A stretch of DNA of 64,000 bases from Sphingopyxis sp. (GTDB lineage Bacteria > Pseudomonadota > Alphaproteobacteria > Sphingomonadales > Sphingomonadaceae): the NCBI GenBank assembly GCA_030145715.1, contig JAIXHQ010000002.1, forward strand, positions 124,001 through 188,000. The letters run 5' to 3'. This document shows positions 439 to 13,947 of this stretch, piece by piece (within the stretch, counting starts at the first letter, position 1; every line of letters starts with the position of its first letter). The notes under the pieces were generated by a model. The model saw only the letters and a program-made list of their open reading frames with translations. It did no database searches and was not told where the DNA came from. A program made the translations under genes and the position numbers.

Positions 439-1599
439 TCATTGGCGCTCCATAAACGCCAGAATCGCCTCGGCCGCGCGTTCCGATGACGGGCGCCCCT
501 GCAGGTCGAAGCTATAGCGGAACAGATATTCCTGCCGCGCGCGGATCGCCGATGTCAGGCGCGGCACGCCGTCGAGCGCGGCGACCAACTCGTCCATCGA
601 CGACACCACGTCGCCCATGCGCCAATGACGGAAATCCGGGTCTCCTTGCCACGGCAAACGCCGCGGATTGAGGAAGATGCAGGGCCGTGGACGCCGGATG
701 AATTCATAAACCTGACTGCTCGCGTCGCCGAGATAGATGTCGGCGGCATCGGTGTAGGTCATGTCGAGACTGGCCGGACTGCCGGTGTCGATCAGCATAT
801 GGTCCTGCGCATATTCCTCGGGCCGCGGCCTGTGGTTCCGGCCGAGCCCAAACGGCGATAGCGAAGCCGTCGCCGGATTCTTGAACGGCAGGACATGCGG
901 GGCGAAGATCAGATTATAACGGCCATCCTGCGCGAACCAGTCGAGAATCTGCGGCCCCATGCGATACCAGGAGGACAGCGCAGGCGAGGGATGCGGATTG
1001 TACAGGATCGTCGGCCGGTCCTTTGGAAACAGCCGCTTAGGCCTGGGCGTTGCGGCATCGAATTTGGGATGGCCGACGATCGCATAGCTCGCCTGTTCAA
1101 GCAGGTCGGCCTGTTCGAGCCGATCGCGGATTTTCTCACCCGACAGTAGCAGCAGATCGAACTTGCCGCTCGCCTTGTCGAAACCAATCTCCCTATCGCC
1201 CGCTGCGTGACGGGTATGCACAAGCTTCAGCGATTTCAGGCCGAACAGCGATCGCAGCAGCAGCGACGTCTTTTCAGGCACGACCAGCGCGTCGAGATTA
1301 CGGAAGCGGTCGAGATTGCGGTGCAGCGTCGAAACAATATCGACCGGAAGCGATCGGCCGCTGGCGCGGCTTGCCAGACTCGCCCATGCGGACGGAGGAC
1401 GGAGGGGGACGATCTCTGGCGCGGGTCCGGCGCGGCCACGGACGAGCCGCCGGACCTCCGTCTCGCATCCGGCGGACACGAGGACCGACACCCGCGCGCC
1501 CGCCGCCTGCCGCGCCAGTTCGAGCGCGACCGGCAGGGCGTGGGCGACCTGGTCGCTGCCCTGATGGCTGAAGAGAAATCCGATCCGCATCGCGCTCAC
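439..1599 (-). CDS. CDP-glycerol glycerophosphotransferase-like / glycosyltransferase
   Basis: 386 aa ORF, GTG start; C-terminal DIYLGDASSQVYEFIRRPRPCIFLNP resembles the CDP-glycerol glycerophosphotransferase acceptor region. Confidence 0.6.
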   Translation of the reverse strand: MSAMRIGFLFSHQGSDQVAHALPVALELARQAAGARVSVLVSAGCETEVRRLVRGRAGPAPEIVPLRPPSAWASLASRASGRSLPVDIVSTLHRNLDRFRNLDALVVPEKTSLLLRSLFGLKSLKLVHTRHAAGDREIGFDKASGKFDLLLLSGEKIRDRLEQADLLEQASYAIVGHPKFDAATPRPKRLFPKDRPTILYNPHPSPALSSWYRMGPQILDWFAQDGRYNLIFAPHVLPFKNPATASLSPFGLGRNHRPRPEEYAQDHMLIDTGSPASLDMTYTDAADIYLGDASSQVYEFIRRPRPCIFLNPRRLPWQGDPDFRHWRMGDVVSSMDELVAALDGVPRLTSAIRARQEYLFRYSFDLQGRPSSERAAEAILAFMERQ

Positions 1600-1817
1600 C
1601 GATGGAACTGGCGCCAGTCGAGCGCCGGCCAGCCCCGCTGGGCTGCGATCGCGAGCAATCGGGTCGAAGGATCCACGGCAATCGCTTTGTCCGCATATTC
1701 AAAGGTCGGCAGGATGGTGAGCGTGCGGTCCAGATCGAAGACCGACAGCGCCATCAGACGCGGCCCAGGTGCCATGGGACCAATTCCTTTCGTCGTTTTA
1801 AGTCGCCGCCCGGCCAT
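1596..1817 (-). pseudogene. HAD-IB-like phosphatase remnant with in-frame internal deletion
   Basis: Motif I VFDLDRTLT is followed almost directly by a typical HAD-IB C-terminal end (YADKAIAVDPSTRLLAIAAQRGWPALDW); only 73 aa; stop overlaps the GTG of the next gene. Confidence 0.55.
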
Positions 1818-1881
1818 GCGGGCGGCGACTGAGGCGGCAGAGCGGCACCGGCGCGGCGCCGCCCTACCCTCATCGGCGCGT

Positions 1882-2787
1882 TCAGAAACTATAGGTGATC
1901 CCGAAAATTCCCTGCGGACTTGTCTTTTTATAGACGATCGGGCTGTTCTTCGGGTCGCCCATCAAGGTCGACACGCCGCCCATTGCCACCACGCCGATCC
2001 GATCGGTAATGCGATAGATTGCGAGCAATTCGGCCTTTGCATCGACCAGCCCGCTGCCTGCGCTATACTGGCGAAGTCCCGACGCCGCCGACTGTGTCGC
2101 GGTGACGCCGAAATAGCGATTATTATGCTTTCGGTTCGCCCAGGTCGTGCCGATCGACGGCATCAGCATCAATTTCTCGCTGGCCATGATCGGATAGGCG
2201 AGGCTGGCATCCGCCAGAACGCCCTCGGTGCTACCCGAGATGACTTTCATGACGCCGACCGTGGCCTGGAAGCCCTTCTGACGGACCCTCACAAAGCCGC
2301 GACCGCCGAGGCCGGTCGACAGCTTGCCGATTCCGATGGGCACGTCCTTGCTTTTGTAACCATCGGCCATCATGAATCCGGCCCCCACGGTAACGGCTTC
2401 GGATTCATAGAAATTGGCGCCGATGCCGTCGCGATAATTGGCGAAGAAACGGCCCTGTTTAAGATCGAGGTATGGGAGCGGCTGGAATGCAAAATCGTCG
2501 TCTCCCCGATATTTCGGCGCATACATCCCGCCGACACCGATAATGAACTGGTTGCCGTTGCCATGACCACTCGGGCCGCCCGGAACACCAGGGCCTCCGT
2601 GGCCGCCCCCCCGATCGGCTCCGCGGCGCGCATCGCTGCCGCGCGGGCTGTCACCCTCGTCGGGCGGCCCCTGCATCGCAAGCGTCATGGGATCGGTTTG
2701 CGCCTGGACCTCAACGGGCGCCATCGCAAGAGGAAGCATGGCGAACAGAAACGCCTGGCGCGCCCGCGGTGTCGGAAATTGCAGCAT
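1882..2787 (-). CDS. MipA/OmpV family outer-membrane protein
   Basis: Signal peptide MLQFPTPRARQAFLFAMLPLAMAPVEVQAQ, MipA-like barrel ending GIFGITYSF; SD AAAGGAC upstream of ATG at 2787. Confidence 0.75.
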   Translation of the reverse strand: MLQFPTPRARQAFLFAMLPLAMAPVEVQAQTDPMTLAMQGPPDEGDSPRGSDARRGADRGGGHGGPGVPGGPSGHGNGNQFIIGVGGMYAPKYRGDDDFAFQPLPYLDLKQGRFFANYRDGIGANFYESEAVTVGAGFMMADGYKSKDVPIGIGKLSTGLGGRGFVRVRQKGFQATVGVMKVISGSTEGVLADASLAYPIMASEKLMLMPSIGTTWANRKHNNRYFGVTATQSAASGLRQYSAGSGLVDAKAELLAIYRITDRIGVVAMGGVSTLMGDPKNSPIVYKKTSPQGIFGITYSF

Positions 2788-3216
2788 ATTGTCCTTTTCT
2801 ATGTTGGGCAGGGTCGGGGTGATCGATGGTCCGGACGCCGGGCCCGGGGATGGAGGGGGGGAACCCGGCGTCCGGTGTCCGGCACGGCGGCGGAGCATAT
2901 TGCCGACGCGTGCTCGGAATCTGTTTCGGTGACGATGCGGCGCCAGAAGCGCGTCGATCATTTCCATCTGCCGCCGGTCGAAGCCCAGCCGGTCGAGCCG
3001 TTCACGCTCGCGGCCGGTCGGAACGACCCCAAAGACCCGGCTGAGGATCGCGTAGCGCCGCAAAGCTTCGAGCCTGGCATTGGCCAGCGGCAGCGACGTG
3101 GCACTGTCGCCGAATATCCAGCAGATAAGGCGGTTCTTTTTCATCAGGCTCGACAGGGGGTCGTCCAGCGACAGGGCGATCACTTGCCGTTCCAGCGCGG
3201 CGATCTCGTGGGACAT
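2788..3216 (-). CDS. Hypothetical protein in frame with, and without a stop before, the MipA/OmpV gene
   Basis: ATG at 3216 (MSHEIAALERQVIALSL...) after AAAGGAG; open frame runs into the downstream MipA ORF. Confidence 0.4.
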
Positions 3217-3236
3217 CAATCCATTCTCCTTTCCCC

Positions 3237-3265
3237 TGAGATGCCGGGGGCCGGAGCGTTCCTCA
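3237..3265 (-). promoter_or_regulatory. Putative ECF sigma promoter A (TGAGGA-N14-GGCATCTCA)
   Basis: Plus strand tgagatgcc 3237-3245 and tcctca 3260-3265; same elements and spacing as sites at 4449 and 11009. Confidence 0.6.
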
Positions 3266-3452
3266 CAAGAAAATCGGAAATCGACGGAAGGCCGCACAGA
3301 TGGCCCAAAACGCTTGCGCTTCCTGATCGGGCAAGGCGAAGGTCCCGCGACGGATGCGCGGGACGCCGCGTGGCGTCGTGCGGTCAGCCCCGCTCAAAAA
3401 AAAGCGCGCGGCGGTTAGTGGGCGGCGCTCCGCGAAAGTGGCGGCCGGAATC

Positions 3453-4430
3453 CTAGCGCGCCGTCATGACCCACTTGTCGTCGATTTTCCGGATGACGAC
3501 GTCCAGCGCCGGACTGAGCCGCTCAAGCTGAGCGACGCCGGTGCCGTCGAGGATGATGGTGCCGGAAAAGGGACGCGCGCCGACCGCGGGCGTCACTTCG
3601 ATCCGAATGCCCAATGTCCGGCCTATATCTTCGGCGACCTGCGACAGCGGAGCCAATGAATAGACGAGCGAACCGCTTTTCCACGAACCGACGGCCTGGG
3701 TCGGAACATCCTCGACTTGGATGCGCGCCTCTCCGTTCCGGTCGACGAGCGCCTCGCCAGCGTCCAGCGCAACGGCCGCGGGACCGGGATTATAAACGAC
3801 CTTTCCTTCGGCAACGGCAACGCGCACTTCCCCGGCCGCATGGACGACGTTGAAGATCGTTCCGGCATCCTCGACGATATTGTCGCCGACCACCAGACGA
3901 AAGGGGTTGGCCTCGTCGTGCCGCACCTTGAAATAGGCCTCACCCGACGCCAGCGATGCGAAGCGCGGATTCTTGCGATCAAAGGTCATGCGCGTCCCGC
4001 CATTCAGCGTCACTTCGGTCGTCGCATCGAGCGCAATGACCTGCCGCTCACCAAGGGCGGTGACAACCTCATATCGGTCCGATCCGGTTGCCGGGAACAG
4101 CAGCACCGCCAGCATGATGGACGCCGCCATCGCGCCGCCGGCACCCCATGTCAGCCAGCGGCGACCGGACGCCGTCGCGCCGGAGACTTGCTTCTCTCCC
4201 ATGCCGTCGTCACCGCGATCGTCGTTGGCGCCTTCGCGGACGACCACATGCGGCAACAGGGGATCGAGCGAGTGATCGGTCGCCTCGACTTCGTCATAGG
4301 CGGCGGCGTGACGCGGGTCTTGGGCCAGCCATTCGGCGAAGGCTTCCCATGTTTCGTCGTCGCCGTCGCGCAGCCGGATATGCCACTTGATGGCGCGCGC
4401 GCGAAGACTCTCCTGTGGTTCATATGGCAT
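3453..4430 (-). CDS. FecR family anti-sigma / signal transduction protein
   Basis: N-terminal DUF4880-like WHIRLRDGDDETWEAFAEWLAQDPRHAAAYDEVE, central TM, FecR domain (TALGERQVIALDATTEVTLNGGTRM). Confidence 0.88.
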   Translation of the reverse strand: MPYEPQESLRARAIKWHIRLRDGDDETWEAFAEWLAQDPRHAAAYDEVEATDHSLDPLLPHVVVREGANDDRGDDGMGEKQVSGATASGRRWLTWGAGGAMAASIMLAVLLFPATGSDRYEVVTALGERQVIALDATTEVTLNGGTRMTFDRKNPRFASLASGEAYFKVRHDEANPFRLVVGDNIVEDAGTIFNVVHAAGEVRVAVAEGKVVYNPGPAAVALDAGEALVDRNGEARIQVEDVPTQAVGSWKSGSLVYSLAPLSQVAEDIGRTLGIRIEVTPAVGARPFSGTIILDGTGVAQLERLSPALDVVIRKIDDKWVMTAR

Positions 4431-4989
4431 GGCGGTTTCTTTCCCCTGTGAGATGCCGCCGGTCCAAGCGATCCTCATTCCATCGAAGCCGCGCGGACGC
4501 TATCGCCTCATACGCCCGCGCAAGATGCTTCTCCACCGCGCTGACGCTGATGCCGAGCCCCTCGGCAATCTGGCGTTGCGGTTCGCCTTCGATACGGAAG
4601 CGGCGAAAAATCACCCGGCTCCGTTCCGGCATATCGTCCAGTACGCGTTGCAGCGTCGCCAGTTGCTCACGCGCGATGAGTTCGGTTTCGATCGATGGGC
4701 GGTCGTCGACCTCCCCGGCATCGCCGCCATGAACCCCGACCCAATCCTCCTCGCGCCGCGAACGGCGACCGGCAGCGCGGCGATGCATCAGAAAATGATT
4801 GTTGGCCATGCTGTACAGATAGGCGCGCGGTTGCGCGACCGGCCCCAGCTTCTCGGCCAGCAGTTTCAGGTGAACGTCCTGCAGAATATCTTCGGCCTCG
4901 TCGCGTTCGGCCCCGCGCGACAGGAGGAAGCGCGCAAGCGCCGGGCGAAGGTCGCCGAACAATTGTACCAGGCCGCCTTCGGTCATCAT
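4420..4989 (-). CDS. RNA polymerase sigma factor, FecI-like ECF
   Basis: sigma2 (RGAERDEAEDILQDVHLKLL) and sigma4 (LDDMPERSRVIFRRFRIEGEPQRQIAEGLGISVSAVEKHLARAYEAI). Confidence 0.9.
   Translation of the reverse strand: MMTEGGLVQLFGDLRPALARFLLSRGAERDEAEDILQDVHLKLLAEKLGPVAQPRAYLYSMANNHFLMHRRAAGRRSRREEDWVGVHGGDAGEVDDRPSIETELIAREQLATLQRVLDDMPERSRVIFRRFRIEGEPQRQIAEGLGISVSAVEKHLARAYEAIASARLRWNEDRLDRRHLTGERNRHAI
4449..4477 (-). promoter_or_regulatory. Putative ECF sigma promoter B, inside the 3' end of the sigma gene, upstream of fecR
   Basis: tgagatgcc 4449-4457 and tcctca 4472-4477, 14-nt gap. Confidence 0.55.
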
Positions 4990-5198
4990 GTGCATCGCAC
5001 CTTCGATGGCTCAAGAGGCAATATCAAGGACAGCTCCAGAAAAGCGCAGGAGAAACGGTGCATCATCGCCCGGCCATCCCCGCAACGACGGGTCGGGCCT
5101 ATCCTTGTCTTTCCGTCCGCGCAACTCATCCGGGCGGCCCTCACCCCAGGGGGAAACCGGCGCACGACAGCATCCCAATCAGCCATGCTCGTCACCGC

Positions 5199-8100
5199 TC
5201 ACCCATGGTGCATCCGGCCTTTTCGGCGAAACAGGCCCCGCACCCGCTGCTTGGCGTCGTCCACAAAGCTGAAGATCACCGGCACGACCAGCAGGCTCAG
5301 CAAGGTCGACATCAGCAATCCGCCGATCACTGCGGTTGCCATCGGTCGGCGGAAGCTGGCGTCGGCGCCGAAACCGAACGCGATCGGCACCATGCCCGCA
5401 ATCATCGCAACCGTCGTCATGATGATCGGGCGCGCCCTTTTCCGGCACGCATCGATCAAGGCGTCGTAACGCGACAGGCCGCGCTCGGTGATGCCGAGTA
5501 TGGCATATTCGACCAGCAGGATGCTGTTTTTCGCGACAATCCCCATCAGCATCACCAGACCGATCATGGCTGGCATCACCAGGGCGTTCCCGCTGAGCAA
5601 CAGGGCGATAAAGGCGCCCCCGATCGACAGCGGCAGGGCAAACAGGATGGTGACGGGCTGGAAGAAATCCTTGAACAGCAACACGAGCACGGCATAAATG
5701 CACAGGACTCCAGCGGCGAGCGCGGCGACGAATCCGATCGCCAGTTCCTCGCCGATTTCGGCGCTGCCATCGGGGATCAGCGATACGCTGGACGGCATCG
5801 ACTGGATCGCGGGCAGCGCATCGATGCGGGTCAGCGCATCGCCGACCGCCATTCCGCCCAGGTCGGCGCTGACCGTAATGACGCGCGACCGGTCGTATCG
5901 GTTGATCTGCGACAACCCGCTTTCGACCGAAATCGTAGCGACGCTGCCCAGCGGGATCAGCCCGTCGCGACCGCGAACGCGCAGATTGGCAAGGATCGAC
6001 AGATCCGACCGTGCCTCGCCCGCGATCCGCGTCTTGATAAAGACCTGACGATTGTCGAGGTTGAGCCGCGCCACTTTGGCGTCGAAATCGCCGTTGGTCG
6101 CCACCCGCACCACGTCGCCGATCTCCTGCGCCGTGACGCCAAGTTCCGCCGCGCGCTGGAGATCGGGTCTGATGACGATCTCCTGACGCTCCAGGCTGGC
6201 CGAGGACTTGATATTGGCCAGGGTGCCGATCCCGCGCATCCCGCGTTCCAGCGCCTGCGCCGTCTGTTGAAGCGCCGCACTGTCCTCACCCGCCAGATTG
6301 AGTTCCAGATTCTCGCTGCCAAAGTCGCCGACATTGAAACGCGCACCCGGAATCCCGCGCAGCCGATCGCGCACCACGCCCTCGATTTCCGACTTGGTCG
6401 GGCGTGCGCCGCGCTCGTCGAGGGTCAGCGACATTTGGGCCGTACGCACCTCTCCGACCGCTTCCTGATCGCCCTGCCCGATGGCCGTGAAAATATTTTT
6501 CATTCCCTCGACATCCTGCAACGCCACGCGGACCTCCTCGGCAACGCTTTTGGTCGTTGCCAGGGCGGTGCCGGGCGGCAGCTCAATCGACATTTCGGTC
6601 AGGCTGCGGTCGTCGGCGGGGAGGAAGCCCGACGGGATCAGGGGCAACAGCGCCAGCGACCCCGCCAGAAAGGCCATCGTCGCCGCCAGCGTCGTCTTCG
6701 GGTGATCGAGCGTCCAGTGGATGGCAGCCAGATAACGCTGCATCACCGGTCCCTCGGCGGGTTCGGGGTGGAGATTATCCTTCAGGAAATAAGCCGCCAT
6801 CATCGGCGTCAGCAGGCGCGCCACCAGCAACGACGCCAGCACCGCGATCACCGCCGTCCAGCCAAAGGGCCGGAAGAAGAGGCCCGCGAATCCGGACATC
6901 ATCGCGGTCGGCAGGAATACGACGACAAGGCTCAGGGTCGTCGCGATGACCGCCTTCGCGATCTCGTCCACCGCCTCCTCCGTCGCGGCCAGGATCGGCT
7001 TGCCCATCCGCCGGTGGCGCTCGATATTCTCGATCTCGACGATCGCGTCATCGACCAATATCCCGACGACGACCGCCATGGCGAGCAGCGTCAGCGTGTT
7101 CAGCGTGAAGCCGAAATATTGCATCGCCGCAAAGGTCGGCAGGATCGACAGCGGCAGCGCGGTGGCGGCGATCAACGTCGCCCGCCAGTCGCGCAGGAAC
7201 AGCCAGACCACAAGGATCGACAGGATCGCGCCCTCATAGAGCATCGCCATCGAGCCTTCATATTGCTCCACGGTATAATCGACCGATCCGCCGACCTGTG
7301 TGAACGTCAGCCCCGGCGTCGCCTTGCGCAACTCTTCCAGCTTTTCGCGGACACCGTCGGCGACTCCGACTTCGCTCGCGCCCTTGGACCTGAAAATCTG
7401 GAACGCGACGACCGATCGCCCGTCGAGCAGCGCCGCCTCGGTCGGATCGGCCGCTCCGTCGCGCACGGTCGCCACCTGGTCGAGCCGAACCCGGCGTCCG
7501 TCGGCGAGCACGATCGGCAGGCTCGCCAGTTCCGATGCTTCCGGAACGATCGCGACGGTCCGGATCGATTGCTCGGCAGCGCCAAGCTGGCCCCGGCCAC
7601 CGGACGATTGCTGCTGTGCGCGGCGGATCGCGCTCGACACGTCGCTCGCCGTCGCGCCGACCGCCGCCAGCTTGACGGGGTCGACGACAATATCGACCTC
7701 GCGCCGCACGCCGCCGACGCGCTCGAACTTGCCCACGCCCGGAACCGACCGCACGCGCTTGCCGATCATGTCGTCGACGAACCAGGAAAGCTCGACCTCA
7801 TCCATCCGCGAGGATTCGATCGCCACCACCAATATGGGCTCAAGGGTAAAATTGACCGAGGTAATCACGGGTGCCAGCAGGTCGGGCGGCAGATTGGACC
7901 GGATCGAATCCACCGCGTCCTTGGTCCTGATCTGCGCATCCGACAGCGCGGTTTCCAGACTGAAGGAGGCGTTGATCTGCACGACGCCCTCGTTCACCGC
8001 CGTCGACATGTGCTGCAGCCCGTCGATCGCCGCGACTGCGTCTTCCAGCCGCCGCGCGACTTCCGTCTCCAGTTGTGATGGCGTCGCGCCGGGGAGCACC

Positions 8101-8246
8101 GCGACGATCGACACCGCGGGCAACGCCACGTCGGGCAAATCCTGCACCGCGATCTTGGAAAAGCCGTAAATCCCCGCGATCGACAGCAGGAAGAACAGCA
8201 GGATGGACGGGATGGGATTGCGGATCGACCAGGTGGCAAAGTTCAC
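5199..8246 (-). CDS. Efflux RND transporter permease (AcrB/HAE1 family)
   Basis: 1015 aa; RND motifs, MNFATWSIRNPIPSILLFFLLSIAGIYGF N-terminus. Confidence 0.93.
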   Translation of the reverse strand: MNFATWSIRNPIPSILLFFLLSIAGIYGFSKIAVQDLPDVALPAVSIVAVLPGATPSQLETEVARRLEDAVAAIDGLQHMSTAVNEGVVQINASFSLETALSDAQIRTKDAVDSIRSNLPPDLLAPVITSVNFTLEPILVVAIESSRMDEVELSWFVDDMIGKRVRSVPGVGKFERVGGVRREVDIVVDPVKLAAVGATASDVSSAIRRAQQQSSGGRGQLGAAEQSIRTVAIVPEASELASLPIVLADGRRVRLDQVATVRDGAADPTEAALLDGRSVVAFQIFRSKGASEVGVADGVREKLEELRKATPGLTFTQVGGSVDYTVEQYEGSMAMLYEGAILSILVVWLFLRDWRATLIAATALPLSILPTFAAMQYFGFTLNTLTLLAMAVVVGILVDDAIVEIENIERHRRMGKPILAATEEAVDEIAKAVIATTLSLVVVFLPTAMMSGFAGLFFRPFGWTAVIAVLASLLVARLLTPMMAAYFLKDNLHPEPAEGPVMQRYLAAIHWTLDHPKTTLAATMAFLAGSLALLPLIPSGFLPADDRSLTEMSIELPPGTALATTKSVAEEVRVALQDVEGMKNIFTAIGQGDQEAVGEVRTAQMSLTLDERGARPTKSEIEGVVRDRLRGIPGARFNVGDFGSENLELNLAGEDSAALQQTAQALERGMRGIGTLANIKSSASLERQEIVIRPDLQRAAELGVTAQEIGDVVRVATNGDFDAKVARLNLDNRQVFIKTRIAGEARSDLSILANLRVRGRDGLIPLGSVATISVESGLSQINRYDRSRVITVSADLGGMAVGDALTRIDALPAIQSMPSSVSLIPDGSAEIGEELAIGFVAALAAGVLCIYAVLVLLFKDFFQPVTILFALPLSIGGAFIALLLSGNALVMPAMIGLVMLMGIVAKNSILLVEYAILGITERGLSRYDALIDACRKRARPIIMTTVAMIAGMVPIAFGFGADASFRRPMATAVIGGLLMSTLLSLLVVPVIFSFVDDAKQRVRGLFRRKGRMHHG

Positions 8247-9370
8247 GGGCGCGCCTTTCCTGCCAGAGCAACCGCGACCGGATCACCATCCTTCAGAAAG
8301 GCCGCGCCCCGCTGCACCACCCGCTCGGCGCCCGTCAGGCCGCGTTCGATCTCGATCAGACCGCCGTTGCGACGGCCTGTCTTAACAGCCCGCAGGACGA
8401 CCTTCGCCGTCTTGCCCGATCCCGGTGCCAGAATGACGAAACTCCGTCCGTCGCGGATGACGACGCATTCGGCCGGCACGACCAGCGCCGGCGACTCCCC
8501 GACCTCGACGGCGCCGCTGACGTACATTCCGGCCCGCGCGGTGCTGCCCGCCAAAATATCGGCATAGATCACGGCCAGTCGCGACGTGTCGGTCAGCGCC
8601 GGCGCCACCTGCCGAACGCGGGCCCGGGCCGTACTGCCGTCGGGAAGCGTCAGACGGACGGTCTGCTCCTTCCGCAATGACGACAACTGACCGGCGGTCA
8701 TCTCGCCGCGCCATTCGAGCCGGTTCTGCCGGATCATCCGGAACAATTCCTGCCCGGCCGGGACGACGGCGCCGAGCGTCGCCGTCCGCGCGCTGATCAC
8801 CCCATCATCGGGCGCGACGATCGCGGTATAGCGCAGTTCGAGGCGCTTGGCAGCCAGGAGCGCGGCCGCCGTCCTGGCCTCGGTTGCGGATTGCAGCGCC
8901 TCTTGGTCGCTGATACCGCCGACTTTTTGAAGCCCCCGCGCCCGCGCATCGTTGGCGGCCGCCTGAATCTGGCGCGCGACGAGTTGGGCCTCCTGGGCAC
9001 GAAGCAGGGCCGGGTTCAGGGTCGCCAGCACCTGTCCGCGCCGGACCTGATCGCCGACATTCGCCCGGACATCGATCAACTGATAGCTGCCCACCTGCGT
9101 CCCGATGCTGGCCTCCTGCCACGCCGCGATCACGCCTTGCGCGCTCAGGCTGTCCGCCCAGTTGATGCGGCGGGGCGTGGCGACGGTCACCGTCAGCGCG
9201 GCGGACGCATCGGCATCGCCCTTTTGCTCAGCATCCCCGCCCCACAATATGTAAAGGCCGAGACCCAGCACGAGGAGCAGGAAAATGATCCCGCCAATAC
9301 AGCCGCGGTTGCCCATCGGGGGAATGTGGTTCTCGCGCGATTTCGCACCGGTTTCCACCGCGTCACTCAT
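8243..9370 (-). CDS. Efflux RND transporter periplasmic adaptor subunit
   Basis: 375 aa; membrane fusion protein pattern (VTVATPRRINWADSLSAQGVIAAWQEASIGTQVGSYQLIDVRANVGDQVRRGQVLA); ATGA overlap with permease. Confidence 0.9.
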   Translation of the reverse strand: MSDAVETGAKSRENHIPPMGNRGCIGGIIFLLLVLGLGLYILWGGDAEQKGDADASAALTVTVATPRRINWADSLSAQGVIAAWQEASIGTQVGSYQLIDVRANVGDQVRRGQVLATLNPALLRAQEAQLVARQIQAAANDARARGLQKVGGISDQEALQSATEARTAAALLAAKRLELRYTAIVAPDDGVISARTATLGAVVPAGQELFRMIRQNRLEWRGEMTAGQLSSLRKEQTVRLTLPDGSTARARVRQVAPALTDTSRLAVIYADILAGSTARAGMYVSGAVEVGESPALVVPAECVVIRDGRSFVILAPGSGKTAKVVLRAVKTGRRNGGLIEIERGLTGAERVVQRGAAFLKDGDPVAVALAGKARP

Positions 9371-10866
9371 TGTCCATCAATCCCATAGCTTTGGCCCGCT
9401 TGCGGTGCCGATCCCGCGGCATTTTCGGCGCCTTCCTGATAGGCGGCAGGTCCGCTGCGGCGGACCAGCGACACCCAGGCCCGCGCCCGGTCGGCAGACG
9501 CGGTGACCAGATTTTCCCGTGCCGCGTTGAACTGCCGCCTGGTTTCCTCCAGTTCGAATTGCGCGATCGCGCCGGCTTGCCAGCGTGCAAGGTTCGCGCG
9601 CAGTGCATATTCCGATGCGGCCAACGCCGCCGCGGCAGCCTCGATCCGCGCCTCGGCCGATTGGCGGGCGACAAGCCCGTCCTCGATGTCGCGGATCGCC
9701 ACCCGAACGACGCCGATCAACTGCGCCGCCGCCTCGCGATAGACAGCTTCGGCAAGGCGGACCTTGGCCTTGCCAGCCCCGCCGTCAAAGATCGGGACGG
9801 CCAGCCCCGCCCCGGCCGAGCCGCTGACATAGGAACTGCTCGAACCGAGCGCGCGGATCCATTGCCCCGTCAATACGCCCAGCAGGTCGATGCGCGGCAG
9901 GCGTTCGGCCTTGGCTACCGCGACCTCAGACCAGCGCGCCATCGCTTCGCCCTCTGCCGCGACGACGGCAGGGTGATTGCGCAACACGGTGGCGGGAAGC
10001 GCGATCGTGAACGGCGGCGAGACGGGCATCGGCGCGGCCGACAAGCCGCCATCGCCCGGCGACGTCTCCTCTGCTGCGGGTGCCACGGGCATCAGGAGCG
10101 CGCGAATCCCACCCGCCTCGACGCCGGTCAGCGCAACAAGCGCGTTGACGATCCGGGTGCAGCCTTCCGCTTGCGCAATCCGGTCGATGCGCGCAGCGGC
10201 AAGATTGCCTTCGGCCGCCGCCACGGCGAACGGCGCAATGCTTCCGAGCGCCAGCCGGCCCCGGCCTATCCTGAGTTCGGTCTCGCGCGACATGATGTCG
10301 CGGTCGCGAATTTCCAGAATCGCATGGCACCCGCGAAGCGCGATCGCGGCGTCGGCAATATCGCTGACAATCGACAATCGCGCCGCTTCCGTATCGGCGG
10401 TACGCGCCGTCAATCGACGTCTGGCTGCATCGGACCTGGCGCGAACCCGGCCCCAAAGGTCGATTTCCCAGGACAGCCGCGTGCCGCCTGACAGGGAGGT
10501 CTGGCCAATCCTGCTGCCACCCGGTCCCGTGCGATCGCGCGAATAGGTAGCGTTCGCGTTCAGACCGACGTTCGGAACCTTCTGGGCATTTTCGACCGAC
10601 AGCGCCGTGCGCGCCTGGTCCATTCGGGCAGCGGCCTCGGCGAGCGTCGGATTGTCGCGCAAGCCCGCACCGACAAGCTCGTCGATCGCGGGGTCGTGAA
10701 GCAGGCGCCACCAGCCGTCCCGGTCGACCTGCGAGGGGGCGTCTGCGCGCGCGTCGCTCCAATTTGCGGGAAGCCCTAGCTCGGGCCGCGGATAGGCTGG
10801 CTGAACAGCGCACGCGCCCAGCAGCGAGAATGATCCCAATGCGATCGCGAGGGGAAATATCTTCAT
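9367..10866 (-). CDS. RND efflux outer-membrane lipoprotein, NodT family
   Basis: Lipobox LLGACAVQPAYPRPELGLP; OEP repeats; 4-bp overlap with adaptor. Confidence 0.9.
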   Translation of the reverse strand: MKIFPLAIALGSFSLLGACAVQPAYPRPELGLPANWSDARADAPSQVDRDGWWRLLHDPAIDELVGAGLRDNPTLAEAAARMDQARTALSVENAQKVPNVGLNANATYSRDRTGPGGSRIGQTSLSGGTRLSWEIDLWGRVRARSDAARRRLTARTADTEAARLSIVSDIADAAIALRGCHAILEIRDRDIMSRETELRIGRGRLALGSIAPFAVAAAEGNLAAARIDRIAQAEGCTRIVNALVALTGVEAGGIRALLMPVAPAAEETSPGDGGLSAAPMPVSPPFTIALPATVLRNHPAVVAAEGEAMARWSEVAVAKAERLPRIDLLGVLTGQWIRALGSSSSYVSGSAGAGLAVPIFDGGAGKAKVRLAEAVYREAAAQLIGVVRVAIRDIEDGLVARQSAEARIEAAAAALAASEYALRANLARWQAGAIAQFELEETRRQFNAARENLVTASADRARAWVSLVRRSGPAAYQEGAENAAGSAPQAGQSYGIDGQ

Positions 10867-10927
10867 ATGTGATCTGGTCGCTCGATCGGGGATTGATGAT
10901 GGCGCCGCGCGGAAAACCGGCCGCCCG

Positions 10928-10990
10928 TCACGAGAAGAAGGACCGCTCCGCAAACGCAGGTCGTTCAGGCTCGATGAAGTCAGGCACCAC
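10928..10990 (-). CDS. Candidate 20-aa small ORF (M)VPDFIEPERPAFAERSFFS between promoter C and the RND operon
   Basis: GTG at 10990, SD AAGGAG at 10997-11002, TGA 10928-10930; downstream of putative ECF promoter. Confidence 0.3.
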   Translation of the reverse strand: MVPDFIEPERPAFAERSFFS

Positions 10991-11008
10991 TAGAATCTCC
11001 TTCACCGA

Positions 11009-11037
11009 TGAGATGCCGGCGGTGCCCTTTGTCCTCA
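11009..11037 (-). promoter_or_regulatory. Putative ECF sigma promoter C upstream of the RND operon
   Basis: tgagatgcc 11009-11017, tcctca 11032-11037, 14-nt gap; shares the extended CTTGTGAGGA with site A. Confidence 0.6.
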
Positions 11038-11132
11038 CAAGAATTTTTTAAAACTGCGCCGCAGCCGCTATCGGCCGGCCAAAGGGTGCGACCGGATCGT
11101 TCGGGATCTGCCGACGCGCCCGGCCGCGGTTC

Positions 11133-11172
11133 TAGAGTGCCGGTTTTGACGGAATCAAAACCGGCACTCTAG
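11133..11172. repeat. 15-bp perfect inverted repeat, 10-nt loop (terminator or interspersed palindrome)
   Basis: ctagagtgccggttt / aaaccggcactctag. Confidence 0.7.
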
Positions 11173-11230
11173 GTTGTTGTTTTTCCGTGATTTCCAAGCC
11201 GCGAAATGTTCCATTTCACAAGAAACCACT

Positions 11231-13591
11231 CTAGAAACGGACGTCCAGTCCGACGCGGACGGTGCGCGGGCGCAGCGGGGTCATCTGGTTCCGCAATTGC
11301 ACGCCGAACGGGTTGCCGAACGCAAAGCTGTTGCCGCGCATGTCGCCGATGTTCGAGACGTCGAGCGATAGCCCCCAGTGCCCAAAGCCGACCCGCGTCC
11401 CGACGTCGACCACCATATAATCGCCCTGCGATATGTTAAGGAGCGGGCCCACGCCCAAATCCGATCTGCCGACATAGCGCAACGAGCTGTCGCCGGTCAG
11501 AGAGACGCCGCGGGCAAGGTCGAAACGCCATTCCGCCGCCAGACGCGCGCCATTTTCGGCGATATTGGGCAGGCTGCTGCGTTCCGGAATGTCGAACGGC
11601 GGCGGCATGCCATAGAGAAAGCTGCCGTTGAAAAATCCCGTCGCCGACAGCGCAAGTTCCGGCGACACCCGCCACCGGATTTCACCGTCGAGGCCCATGA
11701 TCCGGCCGTTTCCGATATTCGCCGTATAGGGCAGGCCGTCCGCGCCGATCAGGTCGGCCTGGATGTTGCTCCAATCGACGCCGAACAGGGCCGCCCGCAG
11801 CGACAGCCCCTCGCTATCCTTCCGCTTCCATCGGATGCCCAGTTCGGCCTGGCCCAGTTCGTCGCTCTGGAATTCCTGTCCGACGGGCGTCCCGTCACCG
11901 TGCGGCGCGAACGCGAAACCGCCAGCCCGCACGCCCTCCTGATAATTTGCATAGAGCGACACGCGATCGCTGACCTGCCAGTTGACCGCCACGGTTGGAA
12001 CGAAACTGATGCGGGTCCTCGATGATGCCGAAATCGCGTCGGGATCATCGAGCAGCCGGCCCGCGCTGCGCGAAGCCGACAGCCTCATGCCAAAGGTCAG
12101 CTCAATCGCCTTAAAAATCGGAAGCGACACCTGCCCAAAGACCGATCCCTCCACCTGACGATTGCGGATACCGGCAATTCTTTCTGGCGCGGTGGGGGCG
12201 CCCACGCTGCGCGTCAGTCCGCTGATATTATAGACGCCCGCCAGGCCAACGACCCACGGGCTTCGTACGCCGCCGCCCGATAGCCGCGTCTCGTGCGAAT
12301 AAAAGGTGATGTCGGTCCGCTCTTCAAAGCGTCGCGGCGCCGAGGTGCCGTCGGACCCCGTTGCATCGAATACCGAGGTCAGGTCATGCCAGACCACCGC
12401 GCTCGCCGAAACAAGTTCGGTCGCGCCGATGGGCCGGCGGGCGGTCAGAAAGGCCATGCGATATTCGTTGCGGAACGGCTGTGCCAGCACATTGTTGCGA
12501 ACCAGCGGCGGGTCGCCGCGCAGGACATATTGCCCGTCGCGAATGCTGATGCGCTGAAACACGCCGCCGACGTCCACTGTCCAGCCGCCCACATCCTCGA
12601 TGCGCCAGGTCAGCCGCTGACCGAACACCTTGGTACGATTGATGTCGCGCAGATCGCGCGACGGGTCGTCGATATAGCCGGGATCGCGCTTGCCATAGGC
12701 GACCAGACGGATCGCCATATCGTCCTTCCGCAACGGCAGGTTCACCATGATCGCCGCATCCCCGCCAATGGCACCGAAACGCGTCGCACTGAGCCCCGTA
12801 GAGGCGGTCGCCGATGCCGCAGTCGGGTCGGGCGGATTGGGAACCAGACGGACGATGCCGCCCAGCGCACCCGCGCCATAGAGCGTGCCTTGCGGGCCGG
12901 CCAACACCTCGACGCGCTCCATGTCGTACAGGCTCAGGTCGGGATCCGGGGCGCTGTAATTCAGCCGCGCTTCGCCCAGATATTGCCCGACGGTCGCCTG
13001 GGTGGGGCCGGTGAAACTGCTGTCGGCGATGCCCCGGACATAGATTTTGTTCCGGCCGCGTCCCAGATTGGTCGAACTGAGCGCGGGGATCGCATCGATG
13101 AGCATCGCGGTCCCGTCACCCGGCGCGCGCGCCTGTTGGCCAAGGTCGCTCTCGATGATCCGCGCCGAACCGGGATAGTGATCGAGCAGCATATTCTGCT
13201 TGCTGGCCGTGACCACAATATCGACCGGGATGGGTGGCTTGGGCGCCGCGCTTGACGGCGGCTTCGGCCGCTCGGGCGGCTTGGCCCTTGTCCGCTGCGC
13301 CACGATGCGGATCGTCGTCCGGTCGTAAAAATGCGCCTCTGCTCCTGTACCGCGAAGCGCGCGATCGATCGCCTCGCGCAGCGAAAGATCGCCTCTGACG
13401 CCGGGCGAACGGCGACGGGCAACGCCCGGATCGGTCACGGTGATGGTGACGCCAGCCTGCGCGCCGAGGCTCCCCACGACCTCGCCAACGGAGCCGGGCC
13501 GGACATCAAAGGATCGGGCGTCGGCCACCTCGGCAATGCCAAAGCAGCCGACCAGCGCCACGAACGCCGCGCCGCGGCTATGGGCGAACAT
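11231..13591 (-). CDS. TonB-dependent receptor with N-terminal STN (secretin/TonB) signalling domain
   Basis: 786 aa; FDVRPGSVGEVVGSLGAQAGVTITVTDPGVARRRSPGVRGDLSLREAIDRAL = STN; plug and barrel ending RPRTVRVGLDVRF. Confidence 0.9.
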   Translation of the reverse strand: MFAHSRGAAFVALVGCFGIAEVADARSFDVRPGSVGEVVGSLGAQAGVTITVTDPGVARRRSPGVRGDLSLREAIDRALRGTGAEAHFYDRTTIRIVAQRTRAKPPERPKPPSSAAPKPPIPVDIVVTASKQNMLLDHYPGSARIIESDLGQQARAPGDGTAMLIDAIPALSSTNLGRGRNKIYVRGIADSSFTGPTQATVGQYLGEARLNYSAPDPDLSLYDMERVEVLAGPQGTLYGAGALGGIVRLVPNPPDPTAASATASTGLSATRFGAIGGDAAIMVNLPLRKDDMAIRLVAYGKRDPGYIDDPSRDLRDINRTKVFGQRLTWRIEDVGGWTVDVGGVFQRISIRDGQYVLRGDPPLVRNNVLAQPFRNEYRMAFLTARRPIGATELVSASAVVWHDLTSVFDATGSDGTSAPRRFEERTDITFYSHETRLSGGGVRSPWVVGLAGVYNISGLTRSVGAPTAPERIAGIRNRQVEGSVFGQVSLPIFKAIELTFGMRLSASRSAGRLLDDPDAISASSRTRISFVPTVAVNWQVSDRVSLYANYQEGVRAGGFAFAPHGDGTPVGQEFQSDELGQAELGIRWKRKDSEGLSLRAALFGVDWSNIQADLIGADGLPYTANIGNGRIMGLDGEIRWRVSPELALSATGFFNGSFLYGMPPPFDIPERSSLPNIAENGARLAAEWRFDLARGVSLTGDSSLRYVGRSDLGVGPLLNISQGDYMVVDVGTRVGFGHWGLSLDVSNIGDMRGNSFAFGNPFGVQLRNQMTPLRPRTVRVGLDVRF

Positions 13592-13870: not shown

Positions 13871-13947
13871 TGGCGCGCCCGGCAGGATTCGAACCTGCGA
13901 CCACCCGCTTAGAAGGCGGGTGCTCTATCCAGCTGAGCTACGGGCGC
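13871..13947 (-). tRNA. tRNA-Arg (anticodon TCT)
   Basis: Minus strand GCGCCCGTAGCTCAGCTGGATAGAGCACCCGCCTTCTAAGCGGGTGGTCGCAGGTTCGAATCCTGCCGGGCGCGCCA folds as cloverleaf with CCA. Confidence 0.95.

Follow-up and report, generated by a model that had tools for sequence, protein, structure and literature searches.

In a stretch of 64,000 nucleotides (nt) from Sphingopyxis sp. (contig JAIXHQ010000002.1, positions 124,001 to 188,000; hereafter the window) three minus-strand elements with identical sequence blocks lie around a gene for a FecI-like sigma factor (4420..4995), and we consider it very probable that they are promoters read by RNA polymerase carrying this sigma factor, with the signal flow and regulon described below. 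The elements are located at 3237..3265 (site A), 4449..4477 (site B) and 11009..11037 (site C), which matches the coordinates given by an earlier, sequence-only reading of the same DNA. Site A is the predicted promoter of a unit encoding a small protein and a MipA-type protein, site B that of a fecR-like gene, within the 3' end of the sigma gene, and site C that of an RND efflux operon. In agreement with the earlier description, the TGAGGA and GGCATCTCA blocks are the same in all three elements and stand exactly 14 nt apart, with unrelated spacers. The assignment of the promoter boxes held for the -35 element TGAGGA (3260-3265, 4472-4477 and 11032-11037) and had to be revised for the -10 element, which is better read as CATCTC (3238-3243, 4450-4455 and 11010-11015) after a 16-nt spacer than as the block that follows 14 nt downstream; CATCTC, or YGTCTC in relatives, is probably the true -10. 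Read in this way, the element shows what is expected of a promoter for an extracytoplasmic function (ECF) sigma factor, namely two hexamers, a fixed spacer of about 16 nt and a -10 with a YRTC core. It is from the identity of the sites, their exclusivity, their conservation, the constraint on the DNA itself and their geometry, all of them observed directly, that we infer reading by this sigma factor.

The exclusivity was assessed by pattern searches of the genome sequence, which covers 2.83 Mb and is about 88% complete, and the missing part may hold an extra copy. Searching with TGAGGA-N13-15-GGCATCTC returned three matches, which are sites A, B and C, and the reversed pattern returned none; the core GAGGA-N16-CATCTC likewise matched only these three sites at zero mismatches. 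Dinucleotide-preserving shuffles of the window contained no match to the element, and together with the whole-genome scans they rule out a chance origin of the three elements. A weight matrix was built from 30 sites, including the three of the window; it scored these three at 40.5, 39.3 and 25.6, and the runner-up position in the 64 kb reached 8.3. The scan of the window with this matrix also agrees with the earlier statement that no copy is present upstream of the sigma gene or of the gene for a TonB-dependent receptor with a probable STN-like domain.

Conservation was analyzed in 21 relatives (L070-L090) with about 55-81% sigma identity, which were fetched via an alignment of four sigma factors and include Sphingomonas gei, Sphingopyxis italica, Sphingopyxis panaciterrae, Sphingobium boeckii and Novosphingobium rosa. 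The site of the MipA unit is kept in all 21 of them, in 20 cases with the exact 14-nt spacing to the GG block; the remaining locus, L090, has a 13-nt variant (L090:9884) plus another site nearby. The fecR element is found in 21 of 21 as well and scores above 35 in 19. Two outcomes that, according to the sequence-only reading, would have refuted it did not appear: instead of many random genomic matches there was none beyond the three sites, and relatives that retain the sigma gene had lost neither of these two elements. An alignment of the MipA-unit site from 15 non-redundant loci consists of TTT(TTT), TGRGGR, a free spacer, (C)GGYGTCTCA and a purine-rich ribosome site, with values close to the maximum (1.86 bits) at most block positions and less than 0.9 bits in the spacer except for its last base. 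Such an information profile is consistent with the footprint of a promoter and not with a repeat or a coding relic. In the relatives, the receptor is encoded by the third gene of a sigma-fecR-receptor operon and hence lies behind the fecR site. Sphingomonas sp. YR710 (L079) has a third site, TGAGGG-N14-GGTGTCACA at 9828 on the minus strand, upstream of an extra small gene that is oriented divergently to the sigma gene.

The sites also track the sigma gene across genomes. When 11 genomes were searched with TGRGGA-N14-GGYRTCTCA, the four that have a sigma of 64-100% identity gave eight matches, each of them at the sigma locus, and the other seven, four of which belong to the same genus, gave none. 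Extending the search to 400 genomes of the family gave 16 matches, the eight at the sigma locus and eight singles in eight other genomes, and none of the stretches around the singles matched a cluster protein; the reversed pattern had three matches in the same 400 genomes. With the pattern relaxed one base further, 16 matches were found in 11 of 80 genomes of the window's genus. Thirteen of these are at sigma/fecR/MipA loci of the same type, and three of the 13, from three Sphingopyxis genomes, precede the fecR of a sigma-fecR-receptor locus whose sigma is a paralogue with 53-55% identity. FecI-like sigma factors as such are common, as 246 of 301 genomes matched the window sigma and the window genome has at least five further regions matching it at E<=0.001, and genomes without the sigma have no sites except rare strays. 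Exclusivity, conservation and co-occurrence taken together support the earlier proposal that the elements would be sigma-specific promoters around the FecI-like sigma/FecR pair. Two Sphingopyxis genomes (L068 and L187, position 1501) share TGGGGA-N14-GGCGTCTCA in a region unrelated to the cluster.

Site B occupies the last codons of the sigma gene, and its location is the same in the relatives. The codons under its blocks were compared in 22 sigma genes: Asp173 is encoded by GAT in 18 of 18 cases, Asp175 by GAT in 19 of 20, Arg180 by CGG in 22 of 22, His181 by CAT in 15 of 15 and Leu182 by CTC in 19 of 21. Over the rest of the gene, six of 128 comparable columns are invariant, and pooled usage amounts to 48% for GAT and about one third for CGG. 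As synonymous codons are frozen under site B, the constraint acts on the DNA. The rare codon AGA just downstream of site B is present in 17 of 18 cases and is probably kept by the ribosome site of fecR.

A comparable arrangement, hexamer-N16-YRTC, recurs at the sigma/fecR junction of more distant sphingomonad FecI-like genes (38-52% identity). An earlier count of spacings over distant sigma genes was uninformative due to close relatedness; hence, we counted spacings from 8 to 24 in 29 representatives with full junctions that are less than 65% mutually identical. The pattern T[AG][ACG]GG[AC]-N16-[CT][AG]TC occurs in 17 of the 29 and at most three times at any other spacing in this range; as the hexamer pattern was picked after viewing the sequences, the spacing spectrum serves as the control. 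A slightly stricter pattern was found in 14 of 29 junctions, compared with an average of 0.7 for windows placed at random in these loci. Many Sphingobium genes have the -35 within the last sigma codons (GATACGGAA) and the -10 beyond the stop codon, and therefore the arrangement is independent of coding. Outside the family, the sigma-tail pattern was found in only one of 23 junctions. We regard it as reasonably likely that, in a large clade of FecI-like sigma genes from sphingomonads, the final codons of each gene contain the cognate promoter of the downstream fecR (and receptor), so that the C-terminal tail is partly dictated by DNA and the specificity can be read from the sigma factor's own gene. 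If this rule is true, the target promoters of many uncharacterised sigma factors would be predictable from sequence.

On the minus strand, the order of the features is tRNA-Arg, receptor, hairpin, site C, RND operon, sigma gene, site B, fecR, site A and the small-protein/MipA frame. The sigma factor has 191 amino acids (aa), with Pfam Sigma70_r2 and Sigma70_r4_2 above cut-off. The fecR-like gene for its regulator (3453..4430, minus strand, 325 aa) overlaps the end of the sigma gene by 11 nt, and the protein matches FecR with 50.8 bits (cut-off 24) and DUF4880 with 43.3 bits (cut-off 25). Behind site A follows a frame (1882..3216, minus strand) for the small protein and then, in frame, a MipA/OmpV-type outer membrane protein, with MipA at residues 227-445. 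The small protein has about 90-100 aa and the motif LTPLE..VIALS..DP.SSL...LPLANPRLEALRRYAIL; it could be assigned to no family and had no Pfam match, and most relatives encode it directly behind the site. In the window and in L071, L072, L075, L077, L078, L083, L084, L086 and L088, no stop codon separates its frame from MipA, and the MipA signal peptide becomes internal in these fused frames; L070, L073, L074, L076, L079-L081 and L089 encode it in a short open reading frame (ORF) of its own.

The RND operon, assigned with Pfam/NCBIfam models like the receptor, encodes an outer membrane factor of the NodT type (9367..10866), a periplasmic adaptor (8243..9370) and an AcrB-type permease (5199..8246), all on the minus strand. 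Directly behind site C, a minus-strand leader ORF of 20 aa (10928..10990) with the ribosome site GAAGGAG had no Pfam match and is possibly a remnant of the small-protein gene. Short ORFs comparable to it (19-24 aa, with a ribosome site) replace the protein of about 100 aa in L082 and L087. The receptor gene (11231..13591, minus strand) is separated from site C by a 19-bp hairpin (11131..11173), probably a terminator that sets the receptor apart from the site C unit. Plug and barrel of the receptor are above the Pfam cut-off, the N-terminal match to STN (E=1.8e-5, 24.9 bits) is under its cut-off of 28.4, and the NCBIfam FecA model aligns to the same N-terminal stretch, also under cut-off. A tRNA-Arg (TCT) gene is located immediately upstream of the receptor at 13871-13947, with no second copy of its 3' end in the window and no sign of an integrated element. 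Long antisense frames run on the plus strand across the cluster (1207-3456 and elsewhere), as would be predicted for DNA of high GC content, and a sigma70 scan of the cluster gave nothing exceeding chance.

Several observations weigh against a regulon of three sites under this sigma factor. The assignment, although strong, rests on co-occurrence and position. The fecR elements of L089 and L090 are degenerate, and in L072 and L075 the -10 of this element is degraded to CATCTT/CATCTG. In the genome studied here, the receptor gene is parted from fecR and has no site, with the RND operon between receptor and sigma gene. The weight matrix scores site C below sites A and B, and no counterpart of it precedes the RND operon of relatives: three Sphingomonas relatives have the RND genes after MipA, past a hairpin-like sequence recognized by eye, two Sphingopyxis relatives have them in convergent orientation, and neither arrangement includes a site. 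Thus, of the three-site regulon originally claimed, A and B recur in relatives and the RND site C was seen only in this genome. The RND operon as a conserved regulon member is unsupported, since the relatives have RND genes nearby yet without the site; the pump is found beside the cluster recurrently, and its putative promoter control only here. Site C might even be an inactive by-product of a local duplication, with A and B as the only true promoters. Besides the missing counterpart, this would be in line with the sequence TTCTTGTGAGGA shared by A and C, where relatives have TTTGATGAGGA, and with the short ORF behind site C, whose ribosome site resembles that of the small-protein gene; speculatively, the common TTCTTGTGAGGA would fit a duplication of the cluster followed by losses. 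However, the blocks of site C are intact although spacer and flanks have diverged from site A, which indicates selection, and, given the probable terminator at 11131-11173, the RND operon needs a promoter of its own, so that we consider an inactive site C rather unlikely.

Site B could be viewed as a conserved protein tail (DED...RHL) whose likeness to the two intergenic repeats is accidental, given that the site is coding and that the tail residues are conserved among close sigma factors. The frozen synonymous positions contradict this view, as do other sphingomonad sigma genes in which hexamer-N16-CGTC straddles the stop codon and the -10 falls into non-coding DNA; moreover, a promoter is needed at this place for fecR if fecR and the receptor are inducible. 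We judge the protein-tail explanation to be extremely unlikely, and coding constraint alone is ruled out by the codon test together with the homologues whose -10 lies beyond the stop codon. That the sites are ECF promoters read by another ECF sigma factor of the cell seems very unlikely to us. The further sigma-like regions of the genome mentioned above would provide candidates, and ECF promoters built from GGAA/CGTC blocks may be used in common, as in S. meliloti (PMC6180224), but the sites track the window sigma, with half of the family-wide matches at its locus and the rest lone strays, even though FecI-like sigma factors are common, and one site is inside the gene of this very sigma factor. 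The 29-bp element has inverted ends, with TGAG at one and its reverse complement CTCA at the other, which might suggest the operator of a dimeric regulator. Yet the symmetry is lost in variants such as TGGGGA and TGCGGA, which occur alongside an unchanged TCTCA, there is no symmetry in the invariant centre GG[CT][AG]TC, and the position just upstream of a ribosome site as well as the geometry are typical of an ECF promoter. An operator is therefore extremely unlikely, and a dyad was rejected as the two ends do not covary.

For promoters read by the FecI-like sigma factor, the following signal flow can be proposed by analogy with FecI/FecR/FecA (PMC9249621). Binding of a ligand to the TonB-dependent receptor would be passed on to the FecR-like regulator and would yield active sigma factor, and polymerase bearing it would transcribe three units with short leaders: fecR, the unit of small protein and MipA and, in the genome studied here, the RND operon. 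The receptor gene of relatives belongs to the fecR unit, which would place the sensor within its own regulon. With a transcription start 5-9 nt downstream of the -10, the leaders of fecR and of the MipA unit would have a length of about 10-20 nt. No such promoter precedes the sigma gene, whose transcription must originate elsewhere. One possible source in this genome is read-through from site C across a gap of 203 nt, in which no terminator is predicted, and this would create positive feedback. Some Sphingomonas relatives contain TTGAC(G/C)-N17-CAATAG upstream of the sigma gene, which may be a housekeeping promoter; upstream of the sigma gene in the window no obvious equivalent was found.

Sphingomonads possess many FecI-like sigma factors and TonB receptors of unknown target, and the papers searched contained no description of this regulon in these bacteria. 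Here, a motif could be linked to one sigma factor by exclusivity and conservation, and the predicted regulon comprises its own regulator and receptor, a MipA-type protein together with a conserved small protein and, in a single lineage, also an RND efflux pump, by which surface sensing might be coupled to efflux.

A comparison with known systems reveals both shared and divergent features. The E. coli fecA promoter, read from NC_000913 as GGAAAA-N16-TGTCCT, has the same spacing as the three sites, and so have the S. meliloti promoters of the RpoE4 type (GGAATA-N16-CGTCTC), whose -10 is also similar (PMC6180224). FecI and the RpoE1/RpoE4 ECF promoters of S. meliloti are thus among the closest known systems. 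For FecI of this organism a start upstream of fecR has been mapped, while the search for a promoter motif failed (PMC6180224); the order of the S. meliloti FecI-FecR-receptor genes is that of the window's relatives. With E. coli FecI/FecR/FecA the cluster has in common a sigma factor with Sigma70 regions r2 and r4, a regulator with DUF4880 and FecR domains and a TonB-dependent receptor, in the window with a probable STN-like domain. The NCBIfam FecI equivalog cut-off of 260 was not reached by the window sigma (39.9 bits), nor were the FecR and FecA equivalog cut-offs by the respective window proteins. E. coli transcribes fecI and fecR from a common sigma70/Fur promoter, and the only promoter that FecI reads is the one before fecA (PMC9249621); inspection of the fecI/fecR junction by eye showed no such site. 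Unlike this arrangement, the window has putative sigma promoters upstream of three units, namely fecR, with the promoter lying inside the sigma gene, the MipA unit and the RND pump, and the sigma gene stands apart. The HemI-HemR-HemAD system of S. maltophilia is FecIRA-like and affects antibiotic susceptibility beyond iron uptake (PMC12772443), and its operon reportedly lacks autoregulation, whereas here fecR, and in relatives also the receptor gene, is situated behind sigma-type promoters. Therefore, as judged from its sequence, we assume that the cluster is a variant of FecI/FecR surface signalling, in which the new feature would be a sigma promoter within the end of the sigma gene, recurring across Sphingomonadaceae.

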